64,000 bases of DNA from Thermoanaerobacter ethanolicus JW 200 (GCF_003722315.1 NZ_CP033580.1:619001-683000), one strand, 5' to 3'. Positions 27,890 through 48,700 are shown, numbered from the stretch's first letter. Notes: generated by a model not told the origin, from the letters alone. Made by a program: numbers and translations.

Positions 27890-27890
27890 G

Positions 27891-28847: not shown

Positions 28848-28897
28848 AGGGGGTGTTTTAGAAAGACTTTAATTAATTTAAAAACAAAAAATTTTAA

Positions 28898-28914: not shown

Positions 28915-28933
28915 AAGAGGGGAGAGTTTAATT

Positions 28934-29857: not shown

Positions 29858-29869
29858 TGATATGGAATA

Positions 29870-29894
29870 GGCGGAAATTATATCCGCCTTTTTT
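29870..29894 (+). terminator. Terminator of the rbs operon
   Basis: GGCGGA (29870-29875) and TCCGCC (29883-29888) with a 7-base loop are followed by TTTTTT. Confidence 0.92.
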
Positions 29895-29938
29895 ATAAAA
29901 ATTTCGAGAAGTAAAATTACATATTTTTTTAAAATTTA

Positions 29939-29976
29939 AGAAGGAATTTTACAACTTACGTCGAATATATATAATA
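29939..29976 (+). promoter_or_regulatory. Promoter of the murR-murQ-ABC locus
   Basis: TTTACA (29948-29953), 16 bp, TATAAT (29970-29975) within GAATATATATAATA. The AGAAGGA block 24 bases upstream of that string matches the xyl promoter exactly in spacing. A GTAAAATT/AATTTTAC inverted pair (29911-29918 and 29945-29952) overlaps the -35 region and may be a regulator site. Confidence 0.65.
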
Positions 29977-30012
29977 ACAAAGAAAAATTTATAGAGGTAA
30001 AGGACGGTTTTT

Positions 30013-30861: not shown

Positions 30862-30895
30862 ACGAAAAAACAGTTTATAGAAAGGATTTGGTACT

Positions 30896-31804
30896 ATGAT
30901 ATTAGATGAATTAATCACTGAAGGTAGAAACCCTGAAACAATGGATATAGACAGACTGGACACAATTGAAATGCTAAAAAAAATCAACAATGAAGATAAG
31001 AAAGTTGCTGTAGCCGTTGAAAAGGTTATACCTTCTATAGCTAAAGCTGTTGATAGCATTGCAGAGAAAATGAAAAAAGGGGGGAGATTGATATACATAG
31101 GGGCAGGTACCAGTGGGAGAATAGGTATTCTTGATGCATCTGAGTGTCCTCCTACATTTGGTACTGATCCGAGGCTTGTGCTTGGGATAATTGCGGGAGG
31201 AGATAAAGCAATAAGGAATGCAATGGAAAACGTAGAAGACGATGTGGAAGCTGGGAGACAGGATCTAATCAATGTAAATTTAACAGTTAATGATAGTGTT
31301 GTAGGTATTTCGGCAAGTGGACGAACACCATATGTAATAGGTGCATTGGAATATGCAAAACAAGTAGGAGCTCTTACAATTGGTTTGTTTTGTAACCCCA
31401 ATGAAAACCTTTCAAATATAATAGATATACTGATTACACCGGTGGTAGGACCAGAAGTTATAATGGGGTCAACGCGGATGAAGGCAGGAACTGCACAAAA
31501 ATTGGTATTAAATATGATATCAACAAGTGTAATGATAAAGATGGGAAAAGTATATAGTAATCTGATGGTTGATTTGCAAGCTAATAATGAAAAATTAATG
31601 GGAAGAGCAAAACGTATTGTAAAATTAGCAACAGGTGCCGAGGAAAGGATAATTGAAAGCATACTTAATGAAACTAATTACAATGTGAAACTAACAATTT
31701 TAATGATTGTAACAAATTTAGACAAAGATAGAGCCAAACAACTTCTTGATGTGGCCGGCGGCTATATTGCAGAAGCGATAAAATTAAAGGAGGATAGAAA
31801 TTAG
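30896..31804 (+). CDS. murQ: N-acetylmuramic acid 6-phosphate etherase
   Basis: This 302-residue SIS-domain lyase cleaves the D-lactyl ether of MurNAc-6-P to give GlcNAc-6-P and lactate. [21 protein letters not shown] (about 66-86) contains the phosphate loop and the catalytic Glu; [19 protein letters not shown] is the second family motif. It lies 34 bases after murR. Its product feeds NagA at 52859. Lactate released here could feed the 49537 oxidase module (speculative). Confidence 0.97.
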
Positions 31805-31812
31805 ATATGTGA

Positions 31813-31832
31813 TTAACCGGGAATCCGGTTAA
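31813..31832 (+). repeat. Small perfect hairpin before the binding-protein gene
   Basis: TTAACCGG (31813-31820), loop GAAT, CCGGTTAA (31825-31832), followed by AAAATAAAA and not by T. It sits between murQ and the lipoprotein gene, so it is an RNA stability or processing candidate, or an operator. Confidence 0.5.
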
Positions 31833-31858
31833 AAAATAAAAAAATAGGGGGTAAAAAA

Positions 31859-33256
31859 ATGAAAGCCAAAAAATTAATTAGTATTCTTTTGACAATAATT
31901 TTTATTACTTCAATGTTGTCAGGATGTTCAAAGACTACTAATCAACCAAATGGAGAAGCTTCTTCAGCAAAAAAAGATATTGTAAAGGTATGGACATTTC
32001 CTGTTGAAAAAGATTATGAACAAAACTTTGCAAAAATAAAAGAGGACTTTGAAAGCAAAAATCCAAATATAGAAATTCAAGTAGAAGTGTTGTCATGGGC
32101 AGAAGGAGTTAAAAAATTTGATACAGCTATAAATGCTGGTGACCCACCGGATTTAATGTTTATTGTTCCATCAGCAAAATACGTACAAACGGGACTTGCA
32201 GTACCTATTGAAGATTATATTGATAAAGAAACATTGAGTGATTATTATCCTGTTGCGCTCGAATATATGAAAGTAGGTGGTAAATTATATGGCTTGCCGT
32301 TATATATGAAGATACATACTATAGCAGGGAATAAAAAGTTAATGGAAGAGGCAGGTATAGATTGGAAAAAAATCCAAGAAAATGGGTGGACATGGGACGA
32401 GTTTAAGGAACTTACTAAAAAAGGTACCAAAATAAATGCGGAAGGTAAACAGCAATATGGCTTTGTTTTTCATGGAGCGGGAGTTGATATTACAGAATTG
32501 CTTAATCACATGTTAATGAATAATGGCCTTCCATACATGGTTGATGAAAAGGGGAAATTTACGTATACAGATCCTAAGTTTTTAGAAACATTGAAATTTA
32601 TAAGGTCATTGATAGATGAAGGAATAATGCCTAAAGAATCAAATCAGATAACACCACAAAAAAGAATGGAACTTTTTTATACAGAACAAGCAATGATTAT
32701 TGGAAAAGCAATGCCATATTATGAGGTTGTTATTGGTGATAATAACAAAAAAGTTCAAGAAAAAACAGCTCCGCCGGATCAGAAAGTTGTTGATTTTGTC
32801 TTACTCCCTGAGCCGCATGCTGCGGGGCAAAAAGCGATTACACCAGGTGGTGTTGATGGATATTCGATGTTCAAGCAAAAGAATTATAATGGTCCTGTAA
32901 GTCAGGAAGAGCATTTGAGAAACGTGGCGAAAGTCCTTGTAGCATTGACTTCAGGATACGCAGGTATTTCAGCAAAAATTTTGTGCTTACCTCAGGTTAC
33001 AAAATCCGGCGATCAAATATGGAAAGATAAATATACTATGAAACCAGAGAATAAAGAAGAAGTAGATAGATTATTCAAAAATGTATTGCCTCCAGTCCAA
33101 GTAGATCCCGCTCTATCTCAAAAAGCACAAAAACTTTACGATGAAGTTATTAAGGCTGAATATCCTGCTTTACTTGGTGGAGACATTACACCTGAAAAAA
33201 TGTATGAAGATGTGAAAAAGGCAGCACAAGAAATATTTGGAGATAATGTATATTAA
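31859..33256 (+). CDS. ABC transporter substrate-binding lipoprotein in the muropeptide locus
   Basis: The 465-residue cluster 1 binding protein has signal peptide and lipobox LSGC (Cys23), then a Ser/Asn/Lys linker and VKVWTFPVEKDYEQNF. By context (murQ upstream; NamZ, NagZ, AmiE-like, MurK, AnmK downstream) the ligand should be MurNAc or GlcNAc-MurNAc muropeptides rather than a plant sugar. That is inference, since fold alone does not define the ligand. A hairpin follows before the permeases. Confidence 0.85.
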   Translation: MKAKKLISILLTIIFITSMLSGCSKTTNQPNGEASSAKKDIVKVWTFPVEKDYEQNFAKIKEDFESKNPNIEIQVEVLSWAEGVKKFDTAINAGDPPDLMFIVPSAKYVQTGLAVPIEDYIDKETLSDYYPVALEYMKVGGKLYGLPLYMKIHTIAGNKKLMEEAGIDWKKIQENGWTWDEFKELTKKGTKINAEGKQQYGFVFHGAGVDITELLNHMLMNNGLPYMVDEKGKFTYTDPKFLETLKFIRSLIDEGIMPKESNQITPQKRMELFYTEQAMIIGKAMPYYEVVIGDNNKKVQEKTAPPDQKVVDFVLLPEPHAAGQKAITPGGVDGYSMFKQKNYNGPVSQEEHLRNVAKVLVALTSGYAGISAKILCLPQVTKSGDQIWKDKYTMKPENKEEVDRLFKNVLPPVQVDPALSQKAQKLYDEVIKAEYPALLGGDITPEKMYEDVKKAAQEIFGDNVY

Positions 33257-33284
33257 GCTTAAGGGCGTATGCCCTTAGGCTTAA
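33253..33284 (+). terminator. Stem-loop between binding protein and permeases
   Basis: TTAAGCTTAAGGGC (33253-33266), loop GTAT, GCCCTTAGGCTTAA (33271-33284), one mismatch in 14. It has no U run, so a role in transcript stabilisation or partial termination is likelier than a full stop. It parallels the hairpin at 17182. Confidence 0.6.
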
Positions 33285-33303
33285 TAAATAAAGGAGAGAT
33301 ACT

Positions 33304-34218
33304 ATGCAGGAAATGATGATATATAACCGAAAATCTGAAAAGATAAAACAGTTTTTACGAGACTATGGATGGAGTTATATTTTTATTGCACTTCCAGTAA
33401 TAATATTTTTGTCTTTTACTTTGTATCCTTTAATAAAAGCTTTTATGATGAGTTTTCAGGAATATCAAGTCATGGGGTCTCGATGGGTTGGCATCGAAAA
33501 TTATTCCTACATATTTAGGCGAAAGTTATTTTGGAAAGCGCTTTATACTACTCTAGTATATACTCTAGGAACAGTTCCTGTTAATATATTGATATCATTA
33601 GGTTTAGCACTTTTGATATTTCAGCTTGATAAAAAGTCACAAACTTTTTTCAAAACTACCTTTTATCTACCTGCTGTAGCGTCTGGAGTTACGTTATCTT
33701 TAGTTTGGTTTATAATGTATGACCCTACGCCAGACGGATTGCTGAATAAATTTTTGAGTTTATTTGGTTTTCCAAATATAAATTGGCTTGGCAGAATGGA
33801 TACAGCTTTATTTTCTCTTATGCTTATGACATATATAGGCGGACATGGAAGCGGAATAATTTTATATTTAGCATCACTTGGGGGTATTCCAAAGACAATT
33901 TACGAAGCCGCTGAAATAGATGCAGCTGGGACATGGTCTAAATTTAGAAATATTACATGGCCTTTATTAAAACCCATAACACTATATATGTTGATTACTG
34001 GTATAATAGGTTCATCACAGGCGTTTATGACGGCATATCTTATGACAAGTGGTGGACCGAATCATGCAACTACTACGATTGCTTATCTTATATGGCAAGA
34101 CGCTTTTGAATATTTTGATTTTGGTGTTGCTGCAGCAGAGTCTTTTGTGCTGGCCCTTATTATAGTAGGATTATCTGTATTACAATTTAAGTATTTAGGT
34201 TCTGATGTAGAGTATTAA
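33304..34218 (+). CDS. ABC transporter permease (MalF/UgpA type), muropeptide locus
   Basis: This 304-residue inner-membrane protein has about six hydrophobic helices and the EAA loop YEAAEIDAAGTWSKF..ITWP (about 198-217). It forms the translocation pore with the next gene product. ATG 33304 follows AAAGGAGAG. Its position between the 31859 receptor and the 35137 ATPase makes this a complete importer, unlike the xyl-region system. Confidence 0.9.
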   Translation: MQEMMIYNRKSEKIKQFLRDYGWSYIFIALPVIIFLSFTLYPLIKAFMMSFQEYQVMGSRWVGIENYSYIFRRKLFWKALYTTLVYTLGTVPVNILISLGLALLIFQLDKKSQTFFKTTFYLPAVASGVTLSLVWFIMYDPTPDGLLNKFLSLFGFPNINWLGRMDTALFSLMLMTYIGGHGSGIILYLASLGGIPKTIYEAAEIDAAGTWSKFRNITWPLLKPITLYMLITGIIGSSQAFMTAYLMTSGGPNHATTTIAYLIWQDAFEYFDFGVAAAESFVLALIIVGLSVLQFKYLGSDVEY

Positions 34219-34230
34219 GGAGGATTTTAT

Positions 34231-35121
34231 ATGAATACAACTATTGAGGCAGTCCGAGAAGAAGAAATACCAGTTTACAGAGAAAAAAAAGGAGTTACAT
34301 TTTATGTTAAAAGGATATTAATATATTCATTACTATTTTTGTGGTCTATATTCACAATATTTCCATTATATTGGATGTTAACCACTTCTTTCACAGATCC
34401 AAATTTATCTGCTACTATGCATTTTAATTTGATTCCTCGGGAGTTTACTTTTGCTTCTTATAGATTTTTCTTTACATTTAACAAATATGTATTAAGATGG
34501 TTAATCAATTCATTATTTATTGCGACAGTTATAACTTTATCAAATGTATTATTTGCTTCTATGGCAGGATACGCTTTTGCTAAACTTAAATTTCCAGGAG
34601 GAAATACAATATTTTGGATATTAATTAGTACAATAATGATACCTGGACAAGTAACTTTGATCCCCCTATATGTTTTAGTGATTAATGTATTTAATTTAGC
34701 TGATACTTATTTTGCAATAATATTGCCGCAATTAGTATCTGTTTACAACATATTTTTAATGAAACAATATATGACATCTATTCCATCGACTTTGATAGAT
34801 GCAGCAAGAATAGATGCATGTAGTGAATTTGGAATATTCTGGAAGGTAATATTTCCACTTGCCAAACCTGGGATAGCTGTGATGGCAATATTTACGTTCG
34901 TAAGTCAATGGAATGATTTCTTTTGGCCTTTTTTAGTAACAAAAACAAGTGCGATGCGAACAATTCAAGTGGGTTTAGCATCGTTTAAATTTGCTGACAG
35001 TACATTATATGGTCCAATGATGGCAGGTGCAGTAATTGCTTCGATTCCTATGTTTATACTATTCTTTTCTTTGCAGAAATATTTTTTACAGGGTATTACT
35101 ATAGGTGCAATAAAAGGATAA
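34231..35121 (+). CDS. ABC transporter permease (MalG/UgpE type), muropeptide locus
   Basis: This 296-residue membrane permease has an extended hydrophilic N-terminus (about 30 residues before the first helix), the EAA motif IDAARIDACSEFGIFWKV, and the C-terminus QGITIGAIKG. It follows the first permease by 12 bases and precedes the ATPase gene by 15. Together with 31859, 33304 and 35137 it constitutes the importer proposed to replace the MurP PTS. Confidence 0.9.
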   Translation: MNTTIEAVREEEIPVYREKKGVTFYVKRILIYSLLFLWSIFTIFPLYWMLTTSFTDPNLSATMHFNLIPREFTFASYRFFFTFNKYVLRWLINSLFIATVITLSNVLFASMAGYAFAKLKFPGGNTIFWILISTIMIPGQVTLIPLYVLVINVFNLADTYFAIILPQLVSVYNIFLMKQYMTSIPSTLIDAARIDACSEFGIFWKVIFPLAKPGIAVMAIFTFVSQWNDFFWPFLVTKTSAMRTIQVGLASFKFADSTLYGPMMAGAVIASIPMFILFFSLQKYFLQGITIGAIKG

Positions 35122-35136
35122 GGAGGACAATCATAA

Positions 35137-36252
35137 ATGGCAAAAATAGTTTTCGAACATGTTACCAAGGAATTTATCGATGAAAAAAGGGGGAGAGTAA
35201 TAGCGGTAAATGATGCAAATTTTACGATAGAAGATAAAGAATTTGTAGTGTTGGTTGGACCTTCTGGATGTGGTAAAACAACAACTTTAAGAATGATTGC
35301 TGGTCTTGAAAGACAAACAAAAGGCAATATATATATTGGCGAGAAGTTAGTTAATTATCTCCCACCTAAAGATAGAGATATTGCTATGGTATTTCAAGAT
35401 TATGCATTATATCCACATATGACCGTTTATGAAAATCTTTCCTTCGGCTTAAGAAATCTTAAGGTTCCTAGAACAGAAATCGAACAAAAAGTGAAAAGAG
35501 CAGCGGAGATACTTGGGATAAGTGAATTATTAGATCGAAAGCCGAGGGAATTATCAGGAGGACAGAGACAGAGAGTCGCTGTGGGTAGAGCAATTGTTAG
35601 AAATCCTAAAGTTTTTCTATTTGATGAGCCTTTATCAAATCTTGATGCAAAGTTGAGAGTTCAGATGAGAGTAGAACTTGCAGAACTTCATAAAAAGCTA
35701 GAAACTACGATAGTATATGTTACCCATGATCAAGTAGAAGCAATGACATTGGGACAAAGAATTATTGTGATGAATCACGGAGTAATCCAACAAATTGCTA
35801 CTCCTGACGAACTTTATAATAGACCTGTTAATATGTTTGTAGCAGGTTTTATCGGTGCTCCTTCTATGAACTTTATAAATTGTAAAGTTGAAGGGGATAA
35901 AGTAGTGTTAAACGATGGTAATTCTAATACGGTGTTTGATATACCTCAAAAATTTAAAAAAGTTATAGCAAATATAAATGGTAAAGAAATGGTGATGGGG
36001 ATAAGACCTGAAGACATTTGTGATTCTAATTTTTCCCAAAATATTGAAAATAAACTTTATATTGACGCATATGTGAAAGTTGTTGAAAAATTAGGCTCTG
36101 AGAACCTCCTGTATTTTGATAAATATGGCACGACTATTACAGCAAGAGTTAATCCCCAAAGTAGGATTGCTGCAGGCGATCATGCAAAAGTAGCATTTAA
36201 TATAGACAAAATATATTTATTTGAGAAAGAAACTGGGATGGCGATATATTAG
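35137..36252 (+). CDS. ABC transporter ATPase, MsmK/UgpC type
   Basis: This 371-residue ATPase has Walker A GPSGCGKTT (about 39-47), Q-loop FQDYALYP, signature LSGGQRQRVAVGRA (about 137-150), Walker B VFLFDEPLSNLDA and H-loop VTHDQ. A C-terminal OB/TOBE regulatory region (about 240-371) is typical of carbohydrate importers. MsmX-type ATPases can serve several importers. The xyl-region system at 15740-19045 has no ATPase of its own and could share this one (inference). Confidence 0.93.
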   Translation: MAKIVFEHVTKEFIDEKRGRVIAVNDANFTIEDKEFVVLVGPSGCGKTTTLRMIAGLERQTKGNIYIGEKLVNYLPPKDRDIAMVFQDYALYPHMTVYENLSFGLRNLKVPRTEIEQKVKRAAEILGISELLDRKPRELSGGQRQRVAVGRAIVRNPKVFLFDEPLSNLDAKLRVQMRVELAELHKKLETTIVYVTHDQVEAMTLGQRIIVMNHGVIQQIATPDELYNRPVNMFVAGFIGAPSMNFINCKVEGDKVVLNDGNSNTVFDIPQKFKKVIANINGKEMVMGIRPEDICDSNFSQNIENKLYIDAYVKVVEKLGSENLLYFDKYGTTITARVNPQSRIAAGDHAKVAFNIDKIYLFEKETGMAIY

Positions 36253-36268
36253 GGGGAATTAGAAATCT

Positions 36269-36940
36269 ATGAATAGTTTGAGCAAAGTACTTATTAAAAG
36301 TGGTCATGATATTTACGAAAACATAGTTTATGTAGTAATAATAAGTATTATTTGGTTTATCTTTATATTTCCTGGTATTTTCGTGTTAACTCCATATGCC
36401 GGAGTTATATACTTTATTTTTACATCAATACCTGCATTTACTGCAATCCTTTATTTAACAAGACAAAGAATAGACAGAAAATCTTTTAGCTATAAATTAT
36501 TTTTCACAGGATTGAAAAAATTTTACATAAGAACTTTTATATACAGTATGCTTTTTTCCATTTTTGTGATGATTCCAGTGTCCTCGTGGTGGTACTATTT
36601 TCAGACCAAGACAATGTTTACATTTATTATTGCTGTTATACAAACTTATTTGTTTATATTTATCATTTTATCTCAGGTTTATTTTTTACCACTCCTTGTT
36701 AGTGAGAATAAAAATCTTATTAGCGCAATAAATATGTCTATTAAGTTATTTCTTGACAATGGAATGTATACGTTTGGATCTTTAATTCAAATTATTTCGG
36801 TTAGCATATTACTTTTGGTAACAATAGTTGGCGTACCATTATTATGGGCTGGAATGGTATCAATTTTTTTAATAAATCTTTATGATAATCTTTTGCTTAA
36901 ATATATGAATCAAGAGGAAATAAATAATTTAAATTCCTAA
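36269..36940 (+). CDS. YesL-like (DUF624) membrane protein
   Basis: This 223-residue protein has about five to six hydrophobic segments and short charged loops. It is followed by a C-terminal cytoplasmic tail (NLLLKYMNQEEI). The pattern fits the DUF624/YesL family, often found beside oligosaccharide ABC importers in Firmicutes, where its role is unknown. It starts 17 bases after the ATPase gene, so it is part of the same operon and may assist the importer. Confidence 0.65.
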   Translation: MNSLSKVLIKSGHDIYENIVYVVIISIIWFIFIFPGIFVLTPYAGVIYFIFTSIPAFTAILYLTRQRIDRKSFSYKLFFTGLKKFYIRTFIYSMLFSIFVMIPVSSWWYYFQTKTMFTFIIAVIQTYLFIFIILSQVYFLPLLVSENKNLISAINMSIKLFLDNGMYTFGSLIQIISVSILLLVTIVGVPLLWAGMVSIFLINLYDNLLLKYMNQEEINNLNS

Positions 36941-37002
36941 TGATTATACATTTGTTCATCATCTAACAGAAGGTTTTAAAATTTATGGAGGGAATGAAAC
37001 TT

Positions 37003-38073
37003 ATGATTTTTGATAGCAATCGGTTAGAAGAAGCATTTAAAATGATAGATAAAGGCATAGAAAATGGAGTTTTTCCTTGTGCTGCTGTAGCTGTTGGTGA
37101 CAAGAATGGCTTTTTGAAGATTGAAATTAGTGGCAATAAAAGGGTTGTCCCGTATAAAGATAAGTTAAATAGAACTTCTTTGTTTGACCTTGCATCTCTT
37201 ACAAAAGTTGTGGCTACAACTACGTTACTAATGCTTATGATAGAAAAAGGTCTTATCTCTGTATATGATAAAGTGTGTGAATATATACCTTCTTTTAATG
37301 AAAAAGGGAAAGATAAAATAACTATTTTTCAACTTCTTACACATACTTCGAGGTTACCGGTTTATATACCTTTTTATGAAAAATGCAGGGATTACAATGA
37401 TGCCATTGATTATATATGCAAGGAAGTAGAACTGAGAGAAACGCAAGAGGTAGAGTATAGTGACCTTAATTTTATCTTGTTAGGAAAAATACTTGAAACG
37501 GTTGGAGGGGGTAAACTCGACAAACTTTGCAAAAAAGAAATTTTTGATCCCCTTGATATGAAGAACACTTTGTTTAATCCCCAAAAAGAGGATGTTGTTC
37601 CAACGGAAAGAGACGAAAATACAGGAGAGATAATATGCGGTGTATGCCATGATGAAAATGCTAGGTTTTTCGGAGGCATTTCCGGTCATGCAGGGCTGTT
37701 TTCTACTATAGATGACCTTGTAAAATTTGCTAATATGCTTGTCAATTATGGAAAGGTAAAAGATGAGATATTTTTGTCTTATACTCTGTTTAAACGTATG
37801 ATAACAAATTACACAGAAAATTTGGGAGAAAGCAGAGGGTGGGGTTGGGCAATAAAAGATAACACTTCGGCAGGAGGGGACTTGTTTACGGAAAGAGCCT
37901 TTGGGCATACAGGATTTACAGGTACCTCTCTTTGGGTTGACCCTGAATATGGAATTTATGTAATATTATTAACTAACAGAGTGCATCCAACTAGAGAAAA
38001 TGTTAAGATAATTAGATTTCGCCGATTATTTCATAATGCCGTAATGGCGTCTTTGGATTGGAGGAATTATTAG
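37003..38073 (+). CDS. amiE: Beta-lactamase-fold serine hydrolase, AmiE-like N-acetylmuramyl-L-Ala amidase
   Basis: This 356-residue serine hydrolase of the class C beta-lactamase/PBP fold has SLTK (Ser65-x-x-Lys68) as the nucleophile motif, YSDLNF as the Tyr-x-Asn element, and HTGFTG near the C-terminus as the third motif. In B. subtilis the orthologous position (ybbE/amiE, next to nagZ and namZ) encodes an amidase that removes peptides from MurNAc. ATG 37003 lies ten bases after GGAGGG (36987-36992), while ATGs 36985 and 36994 fit badly. There is no signal peptide, so it is cytoplasmic here, unlike Bacillus AmiE. Confidence 0.78.
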   Translation: MIFDSNRLEEAFKMIDKGIENGVFPCAAVAVGDKNGFLKIEISGNKRVVPYKDKLNRTSLFDLASLTKVVATTTLLMLMIEKGLISVYDKVCEYIPSFNEKGKDKITIFQLLTHTSRLPVYIPFYEKCRDYNDAIDYICKEVELRETQEVEYSDLNFILLGKILETVGGGKLDKLCKKEIFDPLDMKNTLFNPQKEDVVPTERDENTGEIICGVCHDENARFFGGISGHAGLFSTIDDLVKFANMLVNYGKVKDEIFLSYTLFKRMITNYTENLGESRGWGWAIKDNTSAGGDLFTERAFGHTGFTGTSLWVDPEYGIYVILLTNRVHPTRENVKIIRFRRLFHNAVMASLDWRNY

Positions 38074-39215
38074 TGGTTAAATGTGGTATTGATGTGATAG
38101 AAAAATATGCAAAATTATTTGAAAATAAAAGGATTGGACTTATTACAGCTCCATCTGGAGTAACTAAAGATTTAAAATCGACTATTGATGTGTTTTATAA
38201 AAATTTTAATCTCACTGCTTTATATTCTCCTGAACATGGAATAAGAGGTGAATTTCAAGCAGGAGAAGAAGTGAAAGAATACATAGATGAAAGAACAGGT
38301 ATAAAAGTTTACAGTTTATATGGGAAAAATAAAAAACCAACCCCAGAGATGTTTGAGAACATAGACATAATGGTTATAGATGTTCAGGATGTTGGTTCGA
38401 GATATTATACTTACTTGTACACTATGGCTTATGCTATGGAGGCTTGCAAAGAAAACGGGAAAGAATTTGTGGTATTAGATAGACCTAATCCTGTTGGTGG
38501 TGTAAAAGTAGAGGGAAATATATTAGATACTAATTTTCGATCTTTTGTGGGATGGTATCCTATCACTCAACGTTATGGACTTACAATAGGTGAATTGGCA
38601 CAACTTTTTAACACAGAATTTGGCATCAATTGTGAGCTGCATGTAATAAAGCTTGAAGGTTGGCAAAGGGATATGTATTATGACGAAACAGGGCTTTTAT
38701 GGCTTAATCCTTCACCAAATATTTCCTCACTTGATGCTGCAGTTTTATATAGCGGCACTTGCCTTTTTGAAGGTACAAACATTTCAGAAGGGAGAGGAAC
38801 TACAAGGCCTTTTGAAATTATTGGAGCACCTTGGCTTGATCCTTATGAGCTTTCAAATGCAATGAATGAAAAAGGGCTTAAGGGAGTTATATTTAGACCA
38901 GTTTACTTTATTCCTTCTTTTTCAAAACATAAAAATGAGATATGTAAAGGTGTTCAAATTCACATAAAAGATAAAAAATCTGTTGATGCTGTAGAGGTTG
39001 GTATTAGACTTTTATATGAAATAATCAAAATTAGTGGTGAAAATTTTGAATGGTTGCCTCCTTTCGGAAATAGCAAAAACTATTTTATAGATTATCTTGC
39101 CGGAACAGATGAACTAAGGCTTATGAAATATGAAGAAGATGAACTTATTGAAAAATGGAGAAAGGATAGCAAAAAGTTTGAAACGATAAAGCAGAAATAC
39201 CATCTTTATCAATGA
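38073..39215 (+). CDS. namZ: NamZ-type exo-beta-N-acetylmuramidase (DUF1343, GH171)
   Basis: This protein of about 380 residues is recognisable as DUF1343: GLITAPSGVTKD, YSPEHGIRGEFQAGE, DVQDVGSRYYTY, LDRPNPVGG, and LFEGTNISEGRGTTRPFE. B. subtilis NamZ releases terminal MurNAc from peptidoglycan fragments. The start is GTG 38073, eight bases after GGAGG, overlapping the previous stop. An upstream TTG (38058) sits before that site. It has no signal peptide, so it acts in the cytoplasm on imported fragments. It overlaps neighbours on both sides, indicating coupling with AmiE-like and NagZ proteins. Confidence 0.9.
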   Translation: MVKCGIDVIEKYAKLFENKRIGLITAPSGVTKDLKSTIDVFYKNFNLTALYSPEHGIRGEFQAGEEVKEYIDERTGIKVYSLYGKNKKPTPEMFENIDIMVIDVQDVGSRYYTYLYTMAYAMEACKENGKEFVVLDRPNPVGGVKVEGNILDTNFRSFVGWYPITQRYGLTIGELAQLFNTEFGINCELHVIKLEGWQRDMYYDETGLLWLNPSPNISSLDAAVLYSGTCLFEGTNISEGRGTTRPFEIIGAPWLDPYELSNAMNEKGLKGVIFRPVYFIPSFSKHKNEICKGVQIHIKDKKSVDAVEVGIRLLYEIIKISGENFEWLPPFGNSKNYFIDYLAGTDELRLMKYEEDELIEKWRKDSKKFETIKQKYHLYQ

Positions 39216-39232
39216 AGAAAGGATTGAAAGTT

Positions 39233-40810
39233 ATGAGAATTGATGAGATGACTTTAGAAGAAAAGATAGGTCAGATGCTAATGGTTGGTTTCCCTTCTCC
39301 TACTTATGATGACCATATTAAAGAATTAGTTAGGGAATATAAAATTGGCAATATTATACTATTTTCTCGAAATGTCAAGGATGGAAAGCAACTTAAAAAT
39401 TTGTGCAATGATATTCAGAAAGATGTAATCAAAAACACACGCATTCCTGCTCTTATTTCAATTGACCAAGAAGGCGGAATGGTAACAAGAATTTATAAAG
39501 ATGCCACTTATTTACCAGGCAATATGGCTATAGCAGCAACAGACAATCCTGAAAATGCGTATAAAATAGGAGAATTAGCAGGGAAAGAGCTCAGGGCATT
39601 GGGTATAAACATTAATTTTGCACCAGTACTTGATGTTAATAATAATCCTTCTAATCCTGTAATAGGGGTTAGGTCTTATGGAGAAAATCTCGAAAAAGTA
39701 GCTGAGTTTGGAGTTAACTATATAAAAGGATTGCAAAAAGAAGGAGTTATAGCTACAGCAAAGCATTTTCCGGGTCATGGGGATACCTCTGTGGATTCTC
39801 ATCTGGATTTACCTTTAGTGGAGCATGAGAAAGAAAGGCTTTATAAAGTAGAGTTATATCCATTTAAAAAAGCAGTAGAAAATGGCGTAGATGCAATAAT
39901 GACAGCCCACATTCTTTTTACGGCTTTTGAAGATAATAAATTACCTGCTACTTTATCATATAATATTCTCACCAATATTTTAAGGAAGGAGTTTAGATTT
40001 AAGGGGATAATCATAACAGACTGCATGGAAATGAATGCAATTGCGAAATATTTTGGTACCGCTAAAGCAGCTTCAATAGCAGTGAAGGCTGGAGCTGATA
40101 TAGTTTTAGTTTCACACACAAAGAAATTGCAGATAGAAGCTTTTAATGAAATAAAAGAAGCAGTTTTGCGTGGAGAAATACCAATTGAAAGAATAAATGA
40201 GTCTGTTGAAAGAATAATTAAGTTAAAGGAAAAATACAAGCTCTTCGAAAACCCATATCCAGATGAAAATAAAATTAAGACTCTAGTAGGAAACGCAGAA
40301 CATAAGGAGATTGCAAAAAGTATAAGTTTAAACAGCATTACTGTTGTTAAAGATGAAAATAAGCTTTTACCAATAAAAACCCAGAAAGTATTAGCCATTT
40401 CTCCTGAAACAGTGCCAATTTCAGGTGTTGACGATGCATTGATGGAAAAGCTCTCTTTTGCAAAAGAATTTGTAAAAAGGTTTGGAGGAGTAGAAAAGAC
40501 TATTCTCGTAAATCCTGATGAAAATCTTATAACCCTCTTAATAGAAGAAGCAAAAGACAAAGAAATTGTTGTAATAGGCACTTACAATGCTAGTTTAAAT
40601 GAGGGGCAAGTAAGACTTGTAAGGTTATTATTAGAGGTTAATAAAAATATTATCGTTGTTGCCTTAAGAAACCCTTATGATTTACTAAAGTTTAAAGAAG
40701 TTCCTACATATCTTTGCACTTATGAATACACTCCACTTGCTATAGAAAGTGTTTTGGAGATTTTAAGTGGAAATTATGTGCCACAGGGTAGGCTACCTGT
40801 TTCCCTGTGA
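39233..40810 (+). CDS. nagZ: NagZ, GH3 beta-N-acetylglucosaminidase
   Basis: This 525-residue GH3 enzyme removes GlcNAc from GlcNAc-MurNAc fragments. The NagZ-specific motif KHFPGHGDTSVDSH (177-190) supplies the Asp188-His190 acid/base dyad, and the nucleophile is Asp263 in IITDCMEM. A C-terminal domain (about 355-525) makes it longer than Gram-negative NagZ (about 340) but shorter than Bacillus NagZ. ATG 39233 lies nine bases after AAAGGA; ATG 39212 overlaps the namZ stop and lacks a site. There is no signal peptide. Confidence 0.93.
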   Translation: MRIDEMTLEEKIGQMLMVGFPSPTYDDHIKELVREYKIGNIILFSRNVKDGKQLKNLCNDIQKDVIKNTRIPALISIDQEGGMVTRIYKDATYLPGNMAIAATDNPENAYKIGELAGKELRALGININFAPVLDVNNNPSNPVIGVRSYGENLEKVAEFGVNYIKGLQKEGVIATAKHFPGHGDTSVDSHLDLPLVEHEKERLYKVELYPFKKAVENGVDAIMTAHILFTAFEDNKLPATLSYNILTNILRKEFRFKGIIITDCMEMNAIAKYFGTAKAASIAVKAGADIVLVSHTKKLQIEAFNEIKEAVLRGEIPIERINESVERIIKLKEKYKLFENPYPDENKIKTLVGNAEHKEIAKSISLNSITVVKDENKLLPIKTQKVLAISPETVPISGVDDALMEKLSFAKEFVKRFGGVEKTILVNPDENLITLLIEEAKDKEIVVIGTYNASLNEGQVRLVRLLLEVNKNIIVVALRNPYDLLKFKEVPTYLCTYEYTPLAIESVLEILSGNYVPQGRLPVSL

Positions 40811-40825
40811 GAGGATGAAAGTCAT

Positions 40826-41746
40826 ATGAAATATGTCATTGGAATTGATGGTGGCGGCACAAAAAGTGTAATTTCTATAGCAGACCTGCAAGGTAACATT
40901 ATTGTTACTGAACAGGGAGGCCCTACAAACATCAGGTCTGAAGGAGAGTCTCAAGTATACAATACTTTGAGGTATTTAATTGAAAGTACAGTAAAAAAAG
41001 CTAATTTGAAGATAGAGAAATGCGAAGCTATTTGTATTGGCACAGCAGGAGCAGGAAGAGAAGAAGAACAAAGGATCATAAAACAATATATACAAGCTAT
41101 GGGAATAAAGAGAAATATTATAATAACCAATGATGCAGAAATAGTTATAGCTGAAGTAACAAAGGGGAAAGCAGGCATAGCTGTAATTGCAGGCACAGGC
41201 TCGATTGCATATGGAATAGGTAAAAATGGAGAAAAAGTGAGGATTGGTGGCTGGGGTCATATTGTCGGGGATGAAGGAAGTGCATACTACATCGGTATTG
41301 AAGCAATCAAAGCTGCTTTGAGGTGTTACGATGGGAGAGAATCTTACACGGAATTACTGCCGATGACAATGAAAGAAATTAATATAAAAAATCCGGAAGA
41401 GTTTGTAAAGTTTGTATATAGAAAAGATATCATAAAAAGTGAAATTGCTTCATTGGCTAAAGTAGTTGATGAAGCATATAAAAAGGGAGACAAAAAGGCT
41501 AAGGAAATTCTTTTAAAGGCAGCGGAAGAACTTTTCGTTCTCGCAAAAACAGCGATAAAAGGCATAAGAGCTGAAAAAGACAGTATAACAGTTGTTGCAA
41601 GTGGCAGTGTTTTTATAAATAACGTATTTGTCTATGAAGAATTTGTTAAATTACTTACCAAGAAATATCCAAAGGCAACTATCGAAAAGTTAAAAGGTGA
41701 TGCTTCAAGAGGGGCTGTAGCAATAGCTTTAAAGTCTATTAGATAA
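40826..41746 (+). CDS. murK: MurNAc/GlcNAc kinase (BadF/BcrA ATPase family, MurK-like)
   Basis: This 306-residue ASKHA kinase has the N-terminal phosphate loop GIDGGGTKS (5-13), second phosphate segment AVIAGTGSIAYG (about 118-129) and GGWGHIVGDEGSAYYIG (about 140-156). MurK of Clostridium acetobutylicum, as I recall, phosphorylates MurNAc and GlcNAc at C6. Such a kinase is required here because ABC import, unlike a PTS, delivers unphosphorylated sugars, and MurQ needs MurNAc-6-P. It lies 15 bases after nagZ. Confidence 0.82.
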   Translation: MKYVIGIDGGGTKSVISIADLQGNIIVTEQGGPTNIRSEGESQVYNTLRYLIESTVKKANLKIEKCEAICIGTAGAGREEEQRIIKQYIQAMGIKRNIIITNDAEIVIAEVTKGKAGIAVIAGTGSIAYGIGKNGEKVRIGGWGHIVGDEGSAYYIGIEAIKAALRCYDGRESYTELLPMTMKEINIKNPEEFVKFVYRKDIIKSEIASLAKVVDEAYKKGDKKAKEILLKAAEELFVLAKTAIKGIRAEKDSITVVASGSVFINNVFVYEEFVKLLTKKYPKATIEKLKGDASRGAVAIALKSIR

Positions 41747-41775
41747 ATTATACAATATAGGGAAGGGTAAAAGAG

Positions 41776-42966
41776 ATGGATAGACTCTTTAAGATTTATC
41801 ATAAAGAAGAAAGATTAGTAATAGGTTTGATGTCAGGTACTTCTGCTGATGGAATTGATGCTGCTCTTGTAAAAATTGATGGGAAGGGAATACAGACAAA
41901 AGTTGAACTTTTGGAATTTGAGAATTTCTCCTACAGAAAAGAGGTCAGAAATAAAATATTTGAACTTTTTGACCCTCAAACGAGTACCGTAGAAAAGATT
42001 TGCCATATGAATTTTCTGTTAGGGGAGTTGTTTGCAGAGGCAGCTTTAAAAATTATTGAAAAAGCCCACTTGACACCAGAAAAAATTGATTTAATAGGTT
42101 CTCATGGTCAGACGATATATCATATTCCTAAATCAATTGAGGACTTGGGTTATCAAATAAAATCTACTTTGCAAATTGGTGAGCCAGCAGTTATTGCAGA
42201 AAGAACAGGTATTGTGACAGTGGCTGACTTTAGAGTAAGAGATGTAGCTGCAGGAGGAGATGGAGCTCCTTTAGTACCTTATACTGAGTATATATTATAT
42301 CGTCATCCGTTAAAGACAATAACATTACAGAATATTGGCGGTATCGCAAATGTTACTATATTGCCAGCGGCATGTGACCTTGAAGACATAATTGCTTTTG
42401 ATACAGGTCCAGGCAATATGGTCATTGATGAAGTAGTAAAAAGGTTGACACAGGGACAGTTAAAGTATGACGAAGAAGGTGCCTTAGCTAGTAAAGGCAA
42501 TATTAATGAAAAATTGTTAGAAGAACTTTTGAAAGATGAGTATTTTGAAAAAAAGCCTCCTAAAACTACAGGTAGAGAATACTTTGGGAAAAATTATGTG
42601 GATAAGTTGATGGAAAGAGCTTTTCAGTTAAAAGTAGATAATTATGATTTAATTGCTACAGTAACTGCTTTAACGGCGAAGTCTATAGTAAAAAGTTATA
42701 AAGACTTTATAATGCCTAAATACCAAATTGATAAAGTAATCATTGGTGGAGGAGGAAGCTATAATAAAACCCTTGTCAGAATGATAAAAGAAGGTTTACC
42801 AAATATTGAAGTGGTTACTCAAGAAGAGATAGGATTTAATAGTGATGCTAAGGAAGCAATAGCCTTTGCTATCCTTGCGAACGAAGCTATAAATGGCAAT
42901 TTTAATAATGTACCGAGAGCAACTGGTGCTAGACATCCGGTAATAATGGGAAAGATTTGTTTATAG
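41776..42966 (+). CDS. anmK: Anhydro-N-acetylmuramic acid kinase
   Basis: This 396-residue kinase hydrolyses the 1,6-anhydro ring of anhMurNAc and phosphorylates it to MurNAc-6-P, the MurQ substrate. GLMSGTSADGIDAALV (residues 18-33) is the signature phosphate loop; IGSHGQTIYH, NIGGIANVT and FDTGPGNMVID are also present. Its presence beside MurK means both hydrolysed and lytic-transglycosylase-type ends of peptidoglycan can be used. It starts 29 bases after murK with GGGAAGGG upstream. Confidence 0.96.
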   Translation: MDRLFKIYHKEERLVIGLMSGTSADGIDAALVKIDGKGIQTKVELLEFENFSYRKEVRNKIFELFDPQTSTVEKICHMNFLLGELFAEAALKIIEKAHLTPEKIDLIGSHGQTIYHIPKSIEDLGYQIKSTLQIGEPAVIAERTGIVTVADFRVRDVAAGGDGAPLVPYTEYILYRHPLKTITLQNIGGIANVTILPAACDLEDIIAFDTGPGNMVIDEVVKRLTQGQLKYDEEGALASKGNINEKLLEELLKDEYFEKKPPKTTGREYFGKNYVDKLMERAFQLKVDNYDLIATVTALTAKSIVKSYKDFIMPKYQIDKVIIGGGGSYNKTLVRMIKEGLPNIEVVTQEEIGFNSDAKEAIAFAILANEAINGNFNNVPRATGARHPVIMGKICL

Positions 42967-42979
42967 GAGAAGGTAAATT

Positions 42980-43950
42980 ATGAGCATTGTTTATATCAAT
43001 TTAACAAAGGATAAAGCTTTAGAATTAACAAATTTATGGAATAAAGAAATAGGTGGTAGTTTTCCTCTTCGAGAAGAACTATTTTACCAAAATAGTTTTG
43101 AGAACGTAAACGTGCTTTTAGAAGGTTCATGGATTGCTGTAGATGAAAAAAATCAGAATGCGGCAGGATTTGTGATATCAAAAGTATGGAAAGAAGATAT
43201 GGAATGCATAAAGTCAAAAAAAGATATAGGGCATATTCAAGTTCTGCTGGTTGCTTCTGAGTACAGAAATAAAGGGATAGGTAGTGAATTACTTAAAAGA
43301 AGTGAAAATTCTCTTAGAGAAGCAAGAGTTAAGACGATATTGTTAGGGCAGGATCCTTGGCATTATTTCCCTGGTATCCCTTCTGAATTTGAACTAACGG
43401 AAAAATGGTTTAAAAAGCGTGGTTATGTTAAATATGGCGAAGAATACGACATGTATTGTAACTTAGCAGCTACAAAACCTTTAGAATTACCTAGTTTTCC
43501 AGATGTTAAATTTAGAATGCTAGACAAAGAAGAAAAGGAGGATTTCCTTGCATTTTTAAATAGATGTTTTCCAGGGCGATGGGAATACGAAGCAATCCAT
43601 TATTTCCAGCGGGGTGGCACAGGACGTGAGTTTGTAGTTGCGGAGAAAAAGGGTCAAATAATAGGTTTTTGCAGGATCAATGATAGTAGATCTCCTCTTA
43701 TTGCACAAAATGTGTATTGGGCTCCATTATTTGGAAATGAAGAATTGGGAGGTATTGGGCCTCTGGGTATGGCAATGAAAGAGGTCATGGTTATGGCTTA
43801 GCGATTGTGCAAGCCGGAATGTACTTCTTATATAAAAGAGGGATCAAAAACCTTGTGATAGATTGGACTGGTTTGGTAGATTTCTATGGAAAGTTAGGTT
43901 GTAAAGTTTGGAAAAAATATATCAAGTATAAAAAAGAATTAAATAATTAA
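42980..43950 (+). pseudogene. Tandem-GNAT acetyltransferase, broken by one frameshift
   Basis: The first frame runs from ATG 42980 to TAG 43801 and ends unnaturally after GGIGPLGMA. In the frame one base further on, translation continues as NERGHGYGLAIVQAG, YFLYKRGIKNLVIDW and so on to TAA at 43950, which is the missing acetyl-CoA-binding half of the second GNAT domain. A single lost base, probably an A in GCAAATGAAA at 43774-43776, explains it. Repaired, it would be 323 residues with two GNAT domains (first P-loop-like RNKGIGSELL). It is the same architecture as the intact protein at 44716. Sequencing error is possible. Confidence 0.88.
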
Positions 43951-43984
43951 AAACCTAGATATGGCAAAAGAGAGGAGATTGAAA

Positions 43985-44701
43985 ATGGCTAAAAAATTGC
44001 ACATTATGGCAGTAGGAGCACATTGTGGCGATATGGAGTTAGTTGCAGGAGGAGTAATTGCAAAATATACTAAAGCAGGGCATGAAGCTAGCATTGTACA
44101 TCTTACTCCTGGAGAAAAAGGCCATCCACGTTTAAGTCCAGAAGAATATGCAAAGCAGAAGATTGAGGAAGCAAAACGAGCAGCTGAAATTTTAGGAGCA
44201 GAGCCTATTTTCTTACCTTATAGAGATGCTGAACTACCTGTAAACGACGAAGTTAAATTTCGTTTAGCAGAAGTTATACGAGAAAAGAAGCCTGATGTAA
44301 TAATTACCCACTGGAAAAATAGTATGCATCCAGACCATGCCAATACCCATTTAATTGTGGATGGAGCCATATTGATTGCTGCCTTGCCAGCTTTTGAGCT
44401 AAAAAATCCTGCCCATTCAGTTAGAGGAGTTTTTTACGGAGAAAATTGGGAAGACCCCTATGGGTATGAGCCTGATGTTTATGTGGATATTACTTCCACA
44501 TATGATATATGGGTGGAGGCAATAAAGCAGTATCAGTTTGTTACAGGAGGTATATCTTCTTTCCGTTACTTAGATTATTATACACATTTAGCTGTTGTAA
44601 GAGGTTGTTTAATGGGAGTTAAATATGCCCAAGCATTCATGATGCCAGAGGGTGCTAACAAAAGGCGTGGAGGATCTTTACCGGGATTTACTTTAGAATA
44701 G
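43985..44701 (+). CDS. PIG-L/LmbE-family protein with altered catalytic motif
   Basis: This 238-residue cytoplasmic protein is related to GlcNAc-conjugate deacetylases (MshB, BshB). The metal motif usually reads A-H-x-D-D; here it is A12-H13-C14-G15-D16, so both metal ligands remain but the general-base Asp is Gly. The second motif HPDHANTH (about 118-125) is intact, and QYQFVTGG is present near the C-terminus. It may be a distinct deacylase branch or use another base. ATG 43985 lies seven bases after AGAGGAG. It sits between two tandem-GNAT genes in the muropeptide locus, so an amino-sugar substrate is likely but unproven. Confidence 0.82.
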   Translation: MAKKLHIMAVGAHCGDMELVAGGVIAKYTKAGHEASIVHLTPGEKGHPRLSPEEYAKQKIEEAKRAAEILGAEPIFLPYRDAELPVNDEVKFRLAEVIREKKPDVIITHWKNSMHPDHANTHLIVDGAILIAALPAFELKNPAHSVRGVFYGENWEDPYGYEPDVYVDITSTYDIWVEAIKQYQFVTGGISSFRYLDYYTHLAVVRGCLMGVKYAQAFMMPEGANKRRGGSLPGFTLE

Positions 44702-44715
44702 AAGGTGTTGAAAAA

Positions 44716-45669
44716 ATGAGCTATATTGTAAGAACTTATCAGGGTGGAGATGAAAAGGGTATAGTAGCTGCTTGGCAAGAGAGTCTACCTTATGACCCTA
44801 TCAATTTAGAACTATTTCGATCTAAAGTGTTATTAGATCCCAATTTTGATCCAGAGGGAGCAATTGTGGCAGTAAATGATAATAATCAAGTAATCGGTTT
44901 TACACTTGCTTTAGTTCGACGGTTACCAATGTATAAAGATGATTTAGAATTAGAAAATGGTTGGATTACAGTGTTTTTTGTACAGCCCAATTACAGAAAA
45001 CAAGGAATTGGAAGTAAGATGTTTGAAAAGGCAAAAGAGTTTGTATATAAGAAAGGCCGCAAATATATATTTTTCTCTTCATATGCTCCAAATTACTTTT
45101 TACCTGGAATTGATGAAAAGACTTATCCGGAAGGATACAATTTTTTACTTAAACAAGGGTTTGTCAAATTATATTCTCCTGTTGCGATGGATAGGTCATT
45201 ATTAGATTTTACAATTCCAGAAGAAGTAAAACAATTGAGAGAAAGGAGGGGAAAAGAGGGATTTAGGTTTTTGCTGGCAGAAGACAGGCATTTGTTTGAG
45301 TTAATTGAACTTGCCAACACAGTTTTTAACCCAGATTGGGGACGGGCAATACGTGAAGGAATTTTACGAGGGTTACCAATGGAACAAATACTTGTAGCTG
45401 AAAAAGATAATAAAATTGTTGGATTTTGCTTATATGGTGCATATGAAGGAATTCGCGAAAGGTTTGGCCCATTTGGTGTTGACCCTTCAATGCAGGGATT
45501 GGGTTTAGGGAAAATACTTTTAAATCAATGCTTATTTGAGATGCGATGTAAAGGGCTCCATAATGTATGGTTTTTATGGACTGGAGAAGAAAGTACAGCA
45601 GGGCATTTATATAAAAAGACGGGTTTTAAAGTGACGAGGAAGTTTCATGTGATGAGGTTTAGCTTTTAA
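44716..45669 (+). CDS. Tandem-GNAT N-acetyltransferase
   Basis: This 317-residue protein has two GNAT folds. In the first half ENGWITVFFVQPNYRKQGIGSKMFEKA (about 78-104) carries the acetyl-CoA loop Q/R-x-x-G-I-G. In the second half GPFGVDPSMQGLGLGKILLNQC (about 250-272) does the same. Duplicated GNATs of this length include mycothiol synthase MshD, though no claim of the same substrate is made. It is paralogous to the frameshifted gene at 42980 and flanks the PIG-L-like gene. It probably acylates an amino group of a sugar or peptide derived from peptidoglycan. Confidence 0.8.
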   Translation: MSYIVRTYQGGDEKGIVAAWQESLPYDPINLELFRSKVLLDPNFDPEGAIVAVNDNNQVIGFTLALVRRLPMYKDDLELENGWITVFFVQPNYRKQGIGSKMFEKAKEFVYKKGRKYIFFSSYAPNYFLPGIDEKTYPEGYNFLLKQGFVKLYSPVAMDRSLLDFTIPEEVKQLRERRGKEGFRFLLAEDRHLFELIELANTVFNPDWGRAIREGILRGLPMEQILVAEKDNKIVGFCLYGAYEGIRERFGPFGVDPSMQGLGLGKILLNQCLFEMRCKGLHNVWFLWTGEESTAGHLYKKTGFKVTRKFHVMRFSF

Positions 45670-45707
45670 AAGTAGAGGAAAAGCTTCTAAAGGGGGAAAG
45701 GGGAATC

Positions 45708-48700
45708 ATGTTAGGAAGGAGTTTTGCTATATTTCTGGTTTTTATGTTTGTCTTCACTATGAGTCCTGTGGTGTCTTTAAAGGTATTTTCACAAGATTCT
45801 TCTTTGTCATTGCCAATTGTGTTTTAATAGAAATAGTACCAAACCCTGTTAGGCTTTTACCAGGAGAAGAAAAACAATTTTCAATAAAAGCTTATAATGA
45901 AAAAGGAGAAGAAATTGCTGTTCCTTTAGAACAAGTCATTTGGCGTGCTGAGAGGGATATTGGTACAATTTCCAAAATGGTGCCTCAAGTAGTTGAAGGG
46001 TTAAAATATGGCTATGTAGAAGCAGAATATAATGGAATGGTAGCAAAGGCCTTGGTTATAGTTAGTAGCAAAATTGCAGAAGTCATTGAAGACTTTGAAA
46101 ATATAGAGTTGAATGGAAAAGTTATATTGAGTACAGGGACAATTACACAGGCTGGTAGTTTGCCAGCGACCGCAACAGTTCAGTTGGCAAAACGACCGGA
46201 ACCTGTACTTTATGGGGAACATTCTGCAAAATTTATGTACGATATGAGAGGAACTACCAGGACAACGGCAACTTATCTTAGTTTAAGAGATATTTCTACT
46301 GGTAGTTTAGATAGACCTATTCCTGGTATTCCTAAAAAAATTGGTGTTTGGGTTTATGGTAATCAAAATAATCATTGGTTACGTGCAAGGTTAAGAAATA
46401 GCGACGGAAAAATGTTCCCTGTGGATTTAACGACAACGGCTAATTTTAATTGGACAGGATGGAAATATGTTACAGCAAATATTCCTTCTGATCAAAAAGG
46501 ACCTTTTAAATTCATGGATTTGTATATTGTAGAGACAAAAGATACAAACAAAGATAGCGGTTTTGTCTACTACGATCGCTTAAGTGTGTTCTATACTGAT
46601 ACTGATGTTTTTGGTGTTGATATTATTGGGCTTACTCCTATGCAAGTAGGAGAGACTAAACAAGCAAAGGTAGCTATTACACTTAAAAACAGCACATCCC
46701 CAGAAATAGTTAATAGTGGTATTACATACCTCAGTAGTAATCCAAATGTTGCTTCGATTGACAATGAAGGTAATGTTATTGCTTTGCGCCCAGGTAAAAC
46801 CACAATTGTGGCATTATATGGTAATGCAGAACCTGCTTTCTTTGAACTTTTAATTACGGAGAGTGAACCGATAGTTGATATACTTGAAATTTATGGTCCT
46901 GAAAAAATTGAAGCAGGAATGACAGGAAATTTACAAGTGTTTGCCAAATTTAATGGTTACGATAATAAAATTGAAGTTACTAAAGAAGTAAATTTTATTA
47001 ACCAAAATCCAGAAATTGCTACTGTCAGCAAAGAAGGCATTATCCAAGCATTGTCAGAGGGGGAAACTACAATTATTGCTAAATATAAAAATAAAGAAGC
47101 TTTATATTCATTAAAAGTAACAAAGCCCACTCCTGTATTGTCAAAAATTGAATTAACAGGTTTGAAATCAATGACTGTGCAATCTGAGCTCCAAGCAAAA
47201 GTAATAGGTGTTTATACAGTATTGGGGGAAGAATATGAAAGAATTGAAATTAAAGAAGGTGTTACTTTTAAGAGTAGCAGAGCAGAAGTAGCAGAAATTA
47301 ACCAACAGGGGCTTGTTAAAGCTAAATCAGTAGGGGTTACAGTAATAACAGCTAATTATTTAAATAAAACAGCTAGTTATGTGCTTGTTGTCAATAAGGA
47401 ACCCATTACACCTAAAAGAGAATTTAGGGCTGCTTGGATTGCCACAGTAGATAATATAGATTGGCCTAAGAAGGGAGTCTATGATCCGGAACAACAGAAG
47501 CAGGATTTTATTGAAATATTAGATAAGCTGAAGGATATAGGAATGAATGCAATCATAGTTCAAATAAGACCAACAGCTGATTCATTCTATCCTTCTAAAT
47601 ATTTTCCGTGGTCTCATTGGTTGACAGGAATACAGGGTAAATATCCTGGCTATGATCCTTTGGCCTTTATGATTGAAGAAGCTCATAAAAGAAATTTGGA
47701 ATTTCATGCTTGGATTAATCCTTACCGTGTAAGTATGGGTGACGATTTAAATGCTCTGGTTGACAATCATCCTGCAAAACAGCATCCCGAGTGGGTTGTA
47801 TCATATGGTGGGAAGCTATGGTTTAATCCAGGTAACCCTGAAGTAAAAGAGTATATTATAAATAGTATTATTGAGGTAGTTAAAAATTATGATATTGATG
47901 CTATTCATTTTGATGATTACTTTTATCCATATCCTGTAACAGGTGTGGATTTTCCAGATGAAGAATTGTATCAAAAATATGGTGTAGGATTTGAAAGTAA
48001 AGAGGCTTGGCGTAGAAACAATGTGGATACCTTGATATCAGAATTATCACAAAAAATAAAAGCAACAAAACCTTATATTAAATTTGGCATTAGTCCTTTT
48101 GGAATTTGGCGCAACAAATCCACTGATCCAAATGGGTCAGAGACGAATGGATTTCAAAGTTATGATTCTCTATACGCTGATACAAGGAAATGGGTTCAAA
48201 ATGAATGGATTGATTATATAGTACCCCAAATTTATTGGTATTTTAACTATTCTCCAGCAGCTTATGAAAAACTAGTAGATTGGTGGAGGCAGCAAACTGC
48301 AGGCAAAAATGTACATCTATATATTGGTCATGCTGCTTATCGAGTAGGAGCTGACGATGTTAATTGGTTGGATCCCGACCAACTCCCTAATCAAGTGTTA
48401 TACAATAGAAATTTTGAAAATGTATATGGCAGCGTCTTTTTTGCAACAAATAATCTGCTTAAAAATCCTTTAGGGGTAACGGATCATTTAAAAGAATTAT
48501 TTAAATATCCTGCGTTGGTACCACAAATGGAGTGGTTGACTACTAATTTACCTTCGCAACCAATCAAAGTAAAAATAAATACTAAAGAGGCAGGGATTGA
48601 ATTAAAATGGGAAGATGTAACACCTGAGAATACTACTTATTATGTGATCTATCGCGTAGAAGGGGAGGAAGTACCCAATATCAATGATGCAAAAAATATT

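Follow-up and report, generated by a model that had tools for sequence, protein, structure and literature searches.

Probable cytoplasmic recycling of peptidoglycan fragments by AmiE-like, NamZ and NagZ enzymes without signal peptides, encoded beside an ABC importer in Thermoanaerobacter ethanolicus

We have analysed a stretch of 64,000 nucleotides from Thermoanaerobacter ethanolicus JW 200 (NZ_CP033580.1:619001-683000; the whole stretch is referred to below as the window, and positions are counted from its first letter). It carries, on the plus strand, a cluster of genes in the order MurR-like regulator, MurQ, binding lipoprotein, 2 permeases and ATPase of an ATP-binding cassette (ABC) transporter, small membrane protein, AmiE-like, NamZ, NagZ, MurK and AnmK. 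Our observations indicate that this cluster is probably a module for recycling peptidoglycan fragments in the cytoplasm, fed by ABC import of di- or muro-saccharides. In particular, the location of AmiE-like, NamZ and NagZ in the cytoplasm is well supported.

The AmiE-like gene (37003-38073) encodes a serine hydrolase of the beta-lactamase family (PF00144, E 1.1e-56) which keeps the conserved SxxK and related motifs (SLTK, YSD and HTG), adjoins NamZ and NagZ, and is 31-33% identical to Bacillus AmiE; its fold relatives include esterases and carboxypeptidases, and amidase activity on peptides of N-acetylmuramic acid (MurNAc) is putative. NamZ (38073-39215) is by its sequence a predicted exo-beta-N-acetylmuramidase of family GH171, in which the N-terminal domain (PF07075, E 1.4e-89, 299.3 bits) and the C-terminal domain (PF20732, E 2.2e-53, 181.6 bits) both score above the curated cut-offs, and Glu54-His55 and other invariant residues are retained. 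NagZ (39233-40810, or from 39212) has the B. subtilis-type domains of a GH3 exo-beta-N-acetylglucosaminidase with a C-terminal domain: PF00933 (E 2.3e-105), PF01915 and the Asp-His catalytic loop KHFPGHGDTSVDSH. It also matches NF003740 above the cut-off and is close to the structures 3bmx and 4gyj.

That none of the three enzymes begins with a signal peptide had been claimed in a sequence-only reading of this DNA, and the claim is borne out at any in-frame start. Guided by ribosome sites, we place the starts at ATG 37003 for AmiE-like, GTG 38073 for NamZ and ATG 39233 (or ATG 39212) for NagZ. Signal peptides were judged by a home-made score, which looks for charge at the start, for a core of hydrophobic residues and for a site of cleavage or lipidation; all possible starts were scored and the highest value was kept. 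At the cut-off of 8.5, 61 of 62 solute-binding proteins lie above, as does 1 of 179 cytoplasmic controls (MurR, MurQ, MurK and AnmK). By this measure AmiE-like reaches 3.9, NamZ 4.8 and NagZ 0.9, and the last value is not that of a secreted lipoprotein or signal-peptide protein of the B. subtilis NagZ type. The neighbouring solute-binding protein reaches 12.7, with a lipobox, and the scoring method therefore works in this genome. Upstream alternative starts that might supply a signal peptide, which would have overturned the sequence-only reading, were looked for and rejected: the reading frames are open upstream only as far as 36967, 38037 and 39182, in-frame stops leaving 12, 12 and 17 codons ahead of the AmiE-like, NamZ and NagZ starts, respectively, and none of these extensions encodes a hydrophobic stretch.

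Comparisons with the Bacillus proteins agree with these scores. Residue 3 of NagZ aligns to residue 39-43 of the B. subtilis YbbD structures (3bmx and 4gyj), that is, its N-terminus lies where mature YbbD starts; the starts of NamZ and AmiE-like fall 35-70 residues inside the Bacillus sequences, and the AmiE extension there carries the signal peptide. In the Bacillus relatives, 30-50 additional residues at the N-terminus score as secretion signals. Bacillus AmiE and NagZ work extracellularly (PMC5061867), and the Bacillus loci L185, L204 and L115 encode AmiE, NagZ and NamZ proteins that are all secreted by our score, in agreement with the earlier reading. From the N-terminal alignments and the tight upstream stops we conclude that the secretion segment is missing from the T. 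ethanolicus proteins, and not mis-annotated.

Nor does the rest of the closed genome (2.9 Mb) provide a second, secreted NamZ or NagZ, a back-up which we considered and rejected: there is one NamZ only, and of the 2 GH3 proteins one is NagZ and the other a glucosidase-like protein of 784 residues, both without signal peptide. MurP, sought across the genome, is absent (best match 27.6 bits over 82 residues), and the window cluster contains no gene for MupG. We thus found neither the extracellular recycling of B. subtilis, with secreted enzymes and a MurP phosphotransferase system (PTS), nor the Staphylococcus aureus arrangement, in which the MurP PTS adjoins MupG and MurQ and which we found instead at loci L161 and L166. 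The cluster encodes MurQ (MurNAc-6-phosphate etherase, 30896-31804; TIGR00274, 406.8 bits with a cut-off of 302), MurK (kinase for MurNAc and N-acetylglucosamine, GlcNAc, 40826-41746; residues 1-302 on residues 1-302 of the characterised and solved kinase 8zo3, full length, E 4.2e-73) and AnmK (anhydro-MurNAc kinase, 41776-42966; NF007151, 698.6 bits with a cut-off of 599). As identified, these 3 enzymes would supply exactly the cytosolic steps that are required if uptake is non-phosphorylating.

We have also compared ~180 NamZ loci, of which 100 were regions from phylum-wide and order-wide searches and 80 came from named genomes. NamZ is bimodal in this sample, about half of the proteins having a signal peptide, and its state is the same as that of NagZ in 63 of 68 loci and as that of AmiE in 51 of 53. 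For adjacent same-strand gene pairs, strictly called, secretion state agrees in 95 of 99, the 4 discordant pairs being at L093, L036, L081 and L096; L108 was dismissed as a discordant locus, NagZ being on the other strand there. With regard to importers, NamZ is secreted wherever a MurP-type PTS is the sole one (18/18 loci), is signal-less in 32 of the 43 loci with an ABC importer, and is signal-less in 15 of 15 where it neighbours a binding protein of the window family (at least 560 bits; two ambiguous N-termini were read by eye). Three NamZ with ambiguous calls (L175, L177 and L218), also read by eye, are too short upstream for a signal peptide. Where the whole set is secreted, the neighbouring ABC binding proteins match that of the window at 63-125 bits, and distant relatives of the window's binding protein were seen near secreted NamZ at L091 and L100 (348 and 321 bits, respectively). 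The window NamZ and NagZ fall in clades that are signal-less throughout (36 NamZ rows and 20 NagZ rows), and on the trees loci of like secretion state group together, which indicates few ancient lineages and not many independent events. The associations stay strong at one vote per genus, in Fisher tests that ignore deeper relatedness; a sign test of secretion state versus importer type on independent tree pairs was not significant, there being too few independent changes, and contingency counts are given instead. On balance, we lean towards the view that across Bacillota and beyond the cell location of the trio goes with the importer, secreted enzymes with MurP and cytoplasmic enzymes with a dedicated disaccharide or muropeptide ABC transporter, MurK and AnmK. 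The cytoplasmic form would be an old, widespread and separate lineage, in which NamZ does the job of MupG without phosphorylation.

The putative importer has the parts of a CUT1-type oligosaccharide transporter. These are a solute-binding lipoprotein of the sugar (CUT1-like) type (31859-33256; PF01547), 2 permeases (33304-34218 and 34231-35121) assigned by position, and an MsmX-like ATPase (35137-36252) in whose translation we read a Walker A motif, an ABC signature and a C-terminal regulatory part; permeases and ATPase are co-conserved with the binding protein at L134, L092 and L241. The AlphaFold (AF2) model of the binding protein, with a mean predicted local distance difference test (pLDDT) value of 90, has its nearest folds mostly among cello-, malto-, chito- and other oligosaccharide binders (Z about 31-33 over 370-400 residues), and the list of matches also holds a sulfoquinovoside binder. 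The modelled fold fits a disaccharide ligand, is too common for proof of one and does not fix ligand size. We infer that the importer may accept peptidoglycan disaccharides or muropeptides. The sequence-only reading had gone further, holding that fragments enter intact, are dismantled in the cytoplasm, and that the importer must therefore accept disaccharides or muropeptides, and not free MurNAc. The location and the general idea of import stand; "must accept" is favored by the enzyme set, by the lack of a secreted NamZ or NagZ and of MurP, and by the importer fold, but is too strong in view of related genomes without the cassette and of other ABC transporters beside secreted sets (see below).

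How the enzymes would act here, and in which order, may be pictured as follows. Extracellular autolysins and lytic transglycosylases would free sugar fragments from the wall; the genome encodes two lytic transglycosylases of the SLT type, their N-termini being hydrophobic, which could be the source of GlcNAc-anhydroMurNAc for NagZ and AnmK. The ABC importer (31859-36252) would bring in di- or muro-saccharides without phosphorylation, and NagZ, AmiE and NamZ would then act in this order in the cytoplasm, together with MurK, AnmK and MurQ. In this scheme NagZ would cut GlcNAc off GlcNAc-MurNAc and GlcNAc-anhydroMurNAc ends, AmiE would strip the peptide off MurNAc, and NamZ, which reportedly requires peptide-free MurNAc, would split MurNAc off peptide-free MurNAc-GlcNAc. 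The released GlcNAc and MurNAc would be phosphorylated by MurK, anhydroMurNAc would be turned into MurNAc-6-phosphate by AnmK, and MurQ would yield GlcNAc-6-phosphate, which the NagA-like product of 52859-54013 (identified by reading only) could deacetylate. GlcNAc-MurNAc with or without its peptide, GlcNAc-anhydroMurNAc and MurNAc-GlcNAc would all end as GlcNAc-6-phosphate. Since the intact wall is not attacked by AmiE and NagZ in B. subtilis (PMC10653849), nothing would be lost by moving such enzymes inside.

It is quite possible, if somewhat doubtful, that the trio is mainly catabolic, using foreign cell-wall or chitin-derived sugars as food instead of recycling the cell's own wall; this concerns purpose and not location, and is compatible with the cytoplasmic module proposed here. 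The module is patchy: NamZ occurs in 4 of 24 genomes of the order, and a genome of the same species (G401) lacks the window stretch 23910-39224 and keeps only NagZ, GNAT and NagA at the site (L157, 8409-12603), the module therefore being variable within the species. Also, the cluster adjoins other sugar-use operons, and a search of the genome found no GH73 glucosaminidase (PF01832) to produce MurNAc-GlcNAc from the cell's own wall. Yet MurQ, MurK and AnmK suit either purpose, and the sequence separates neither.

Several observations weigh against the module as we propose it, beginning with the ligand size left unfixed by the fold matches. A full cluster, with a binding protein 83% identical to that of the window, is present in genome G411. 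Genomes G384 and G406, however, both of the same genus as the window, retain the signal-less enzymes without the ABC cassette; G384 is 97% identical over 36987-48340, and the NagZ of G406 has stops. In these genomes, therefore, either uptake depends on another importer or the pathway is being lost. Secreted enzymes, too, can have ABC transporters nearby, which belong to a different family, and an ABC transporter with MurK (and AnmK) stands beside secreted enzymes at L183 and L196. The trees show only ~7 changes of secretion state for NamZ, 4 for NagZ and 3 for AmiE, so that the co-variation rests on few events, and the signal-peptide calls come from a heuristic and not from SignalP.

The genomes without the cassette speak for the idea that the enzymes are cytoplasmic but that fragments enter elsewhere, through an Opp-type oligopeptide or muropeptide transporter or a general sugar ABC transporter, while the adjoining ABC transporter imports something else. 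At L133 we read genes for an OppA-like binding protein and for cell-wall amino-acid functions just upstream of MurR, and Dpp-type ABC uptake of muropeptides has been named for Gram-positives (PMC13204101). We nevertheless consider this route unlikely, given the constant pairing of the window-type binding protein with signal-less NamZ described above and the fact that, in this order, no genomes other than the two with a complete cluster have it. That one or more of the enzymes exit without a classical signal, through lysis or a non-classical secretion route, and work extracellularly like those of Bacillus is very improbable: sequence-based heuristics would miss export without a leader, but the signal-less state is common to all three genes and conserved throughout the NamZ and NagZ clades, such enzymes accompany cytosolic kinases, and any free MurNAc produced extracellularly would have to be imported in a genome that lacks MurP.

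The proposed module shares features with 4 known systems. With the murQ-murR-murP-amiE-nagZ-namZ cluster of B. subtilis it has in common that MurQ and a MurR-type regulator are encoded together with the three hydrolases; there, however, AmiE and NagZ (and NamZ, by its signal peptide) are secreted and free MurNAc is phosphorylated as it enters through the MurP PTS, whereas here signal peptides are lacking and the cluster has an ABC importer and the separate kinases MurK and AnmK. With the MurK pathway of Clostridium acetobutylicum (Reith 2011, cited in PMC4974736) it shares a MurNAc/GlcNAc kinase, intracellular muropeptide cleavage and a Gram-positive anaerobic host. In S. aureus (MurP-MupG-MurQ, PMC6262408) whole MurNAc-GlcNAc likewise enters and is split in the cytoplasm, but uptake is phosphorylating and MupG cuts MurNAc-6P-GlcNAc, whereas here NamZ would cut the unphosphorylated sugar. 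The Escherichia coli AmpG-NagZ-AmpD-AnmK-MurQ route also imports the intact disaccharide-peptide and has a cytoplasmic NagZ, an amidase, AnmK and MurQ; it differs in that AmpG is a permease of the major facilitator superfamily and not an ABC transporter, AmpD is an unrelated amidase, and NamZ and MurK are lacking. As to the site of muropeptide cleavage, C. acetobutylicum, in which it is cytoplasmic, and E. coli have been contrasted with B. subtilis (PMC4974736), and NagZ of Gram-positives can be cytoplasmic, with ABC uptake, NamZ being given as extracellular only (PMC13204101). For Gram-positives, a cytoplasmic NagZ combined with ABC uptake is thus already known (PMC4974736 and PMC13204101 on cytoplasmic cleavage); we did not find in the literature a description of a cytoplasmic NamZ lineage, of NamZ, AmiE and NagZ forming a single cytoplasmic module, or of a shared location of these enzymes that goes with the type of importer.

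Other arrangements were also seen. At two congeneric loci (L113, 5136-13099; L133, 6754-11678) MurQ is followed directly by AmiE, NamZ and NagZ, the ABC cassette being missing, and the 97% identical block in one congeneric genome begins at AmiE (36987), which suggests recombination. Other members of the order have instead a MurR-EIIA-MurP-MupG-MurQ operon (L161, 3365-8244; L166, 7867-12786; L165, 207-5119), also a design for cytoplasmic cleavage; this S. aureus-type route is present at L161, L162 and L166, and at L165 MurQ is split by a break. At L163 (6565-11086) MurQ and an AmiE-like gene without signal peptide have as their neighbour what we read as a mannose-type PTS, and both NamZ and NagZ are missing there; possibly, MurNAc-peptides are imported by this PTS and then cleaved by a cytoplasmic amidase.

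The remaining genes of the region may be described briefly. The MurR-like regulator (30013-30861; RpiR family, HTH_6 and SIS domains) has MurR/RpiR family models as its best NCBIfam matches, below cut-off. The small membrane protein (36269-36940), in a YesL/DUF624-like position, gave no match in a Pfam scan; its gene adjoins that of the ATPase at L134 and is kept beside it in G411 and in several Paenibacillus-type clusters (L092 and L241). Genes for a GNAT protein and a PIG-L deacetylase accompany the recycling cluster in two genera (42980-45669 in the window; L134, 11568-13290). The GHL10 glycosidase gene at 45700-49447 is frame-shifted near its start, with a signal-peptide-like stretch in one frame and the remainder in another, unlike the gene of L113 (15849 onward), which is read through; a GHL10 glycosidase also adjoins signal-less NamZ in Clostridium simiarum (L167, 11272-13302), suggesting a recurring partnership.

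If the proposed module is correct, it would define a route for the import of intact cell-wall disaccharides in Gram-positives without AmpG, together with a candidate importer. About half of the sampled NamZ would then probably be cytoplasmic, against the Bacillus model. It would also allow the sites of uptake or loss of wall fragments to be predicted in a form that can be tested, a matter that touches on stationary-phase survival and on the release of immune-active muropeptides.

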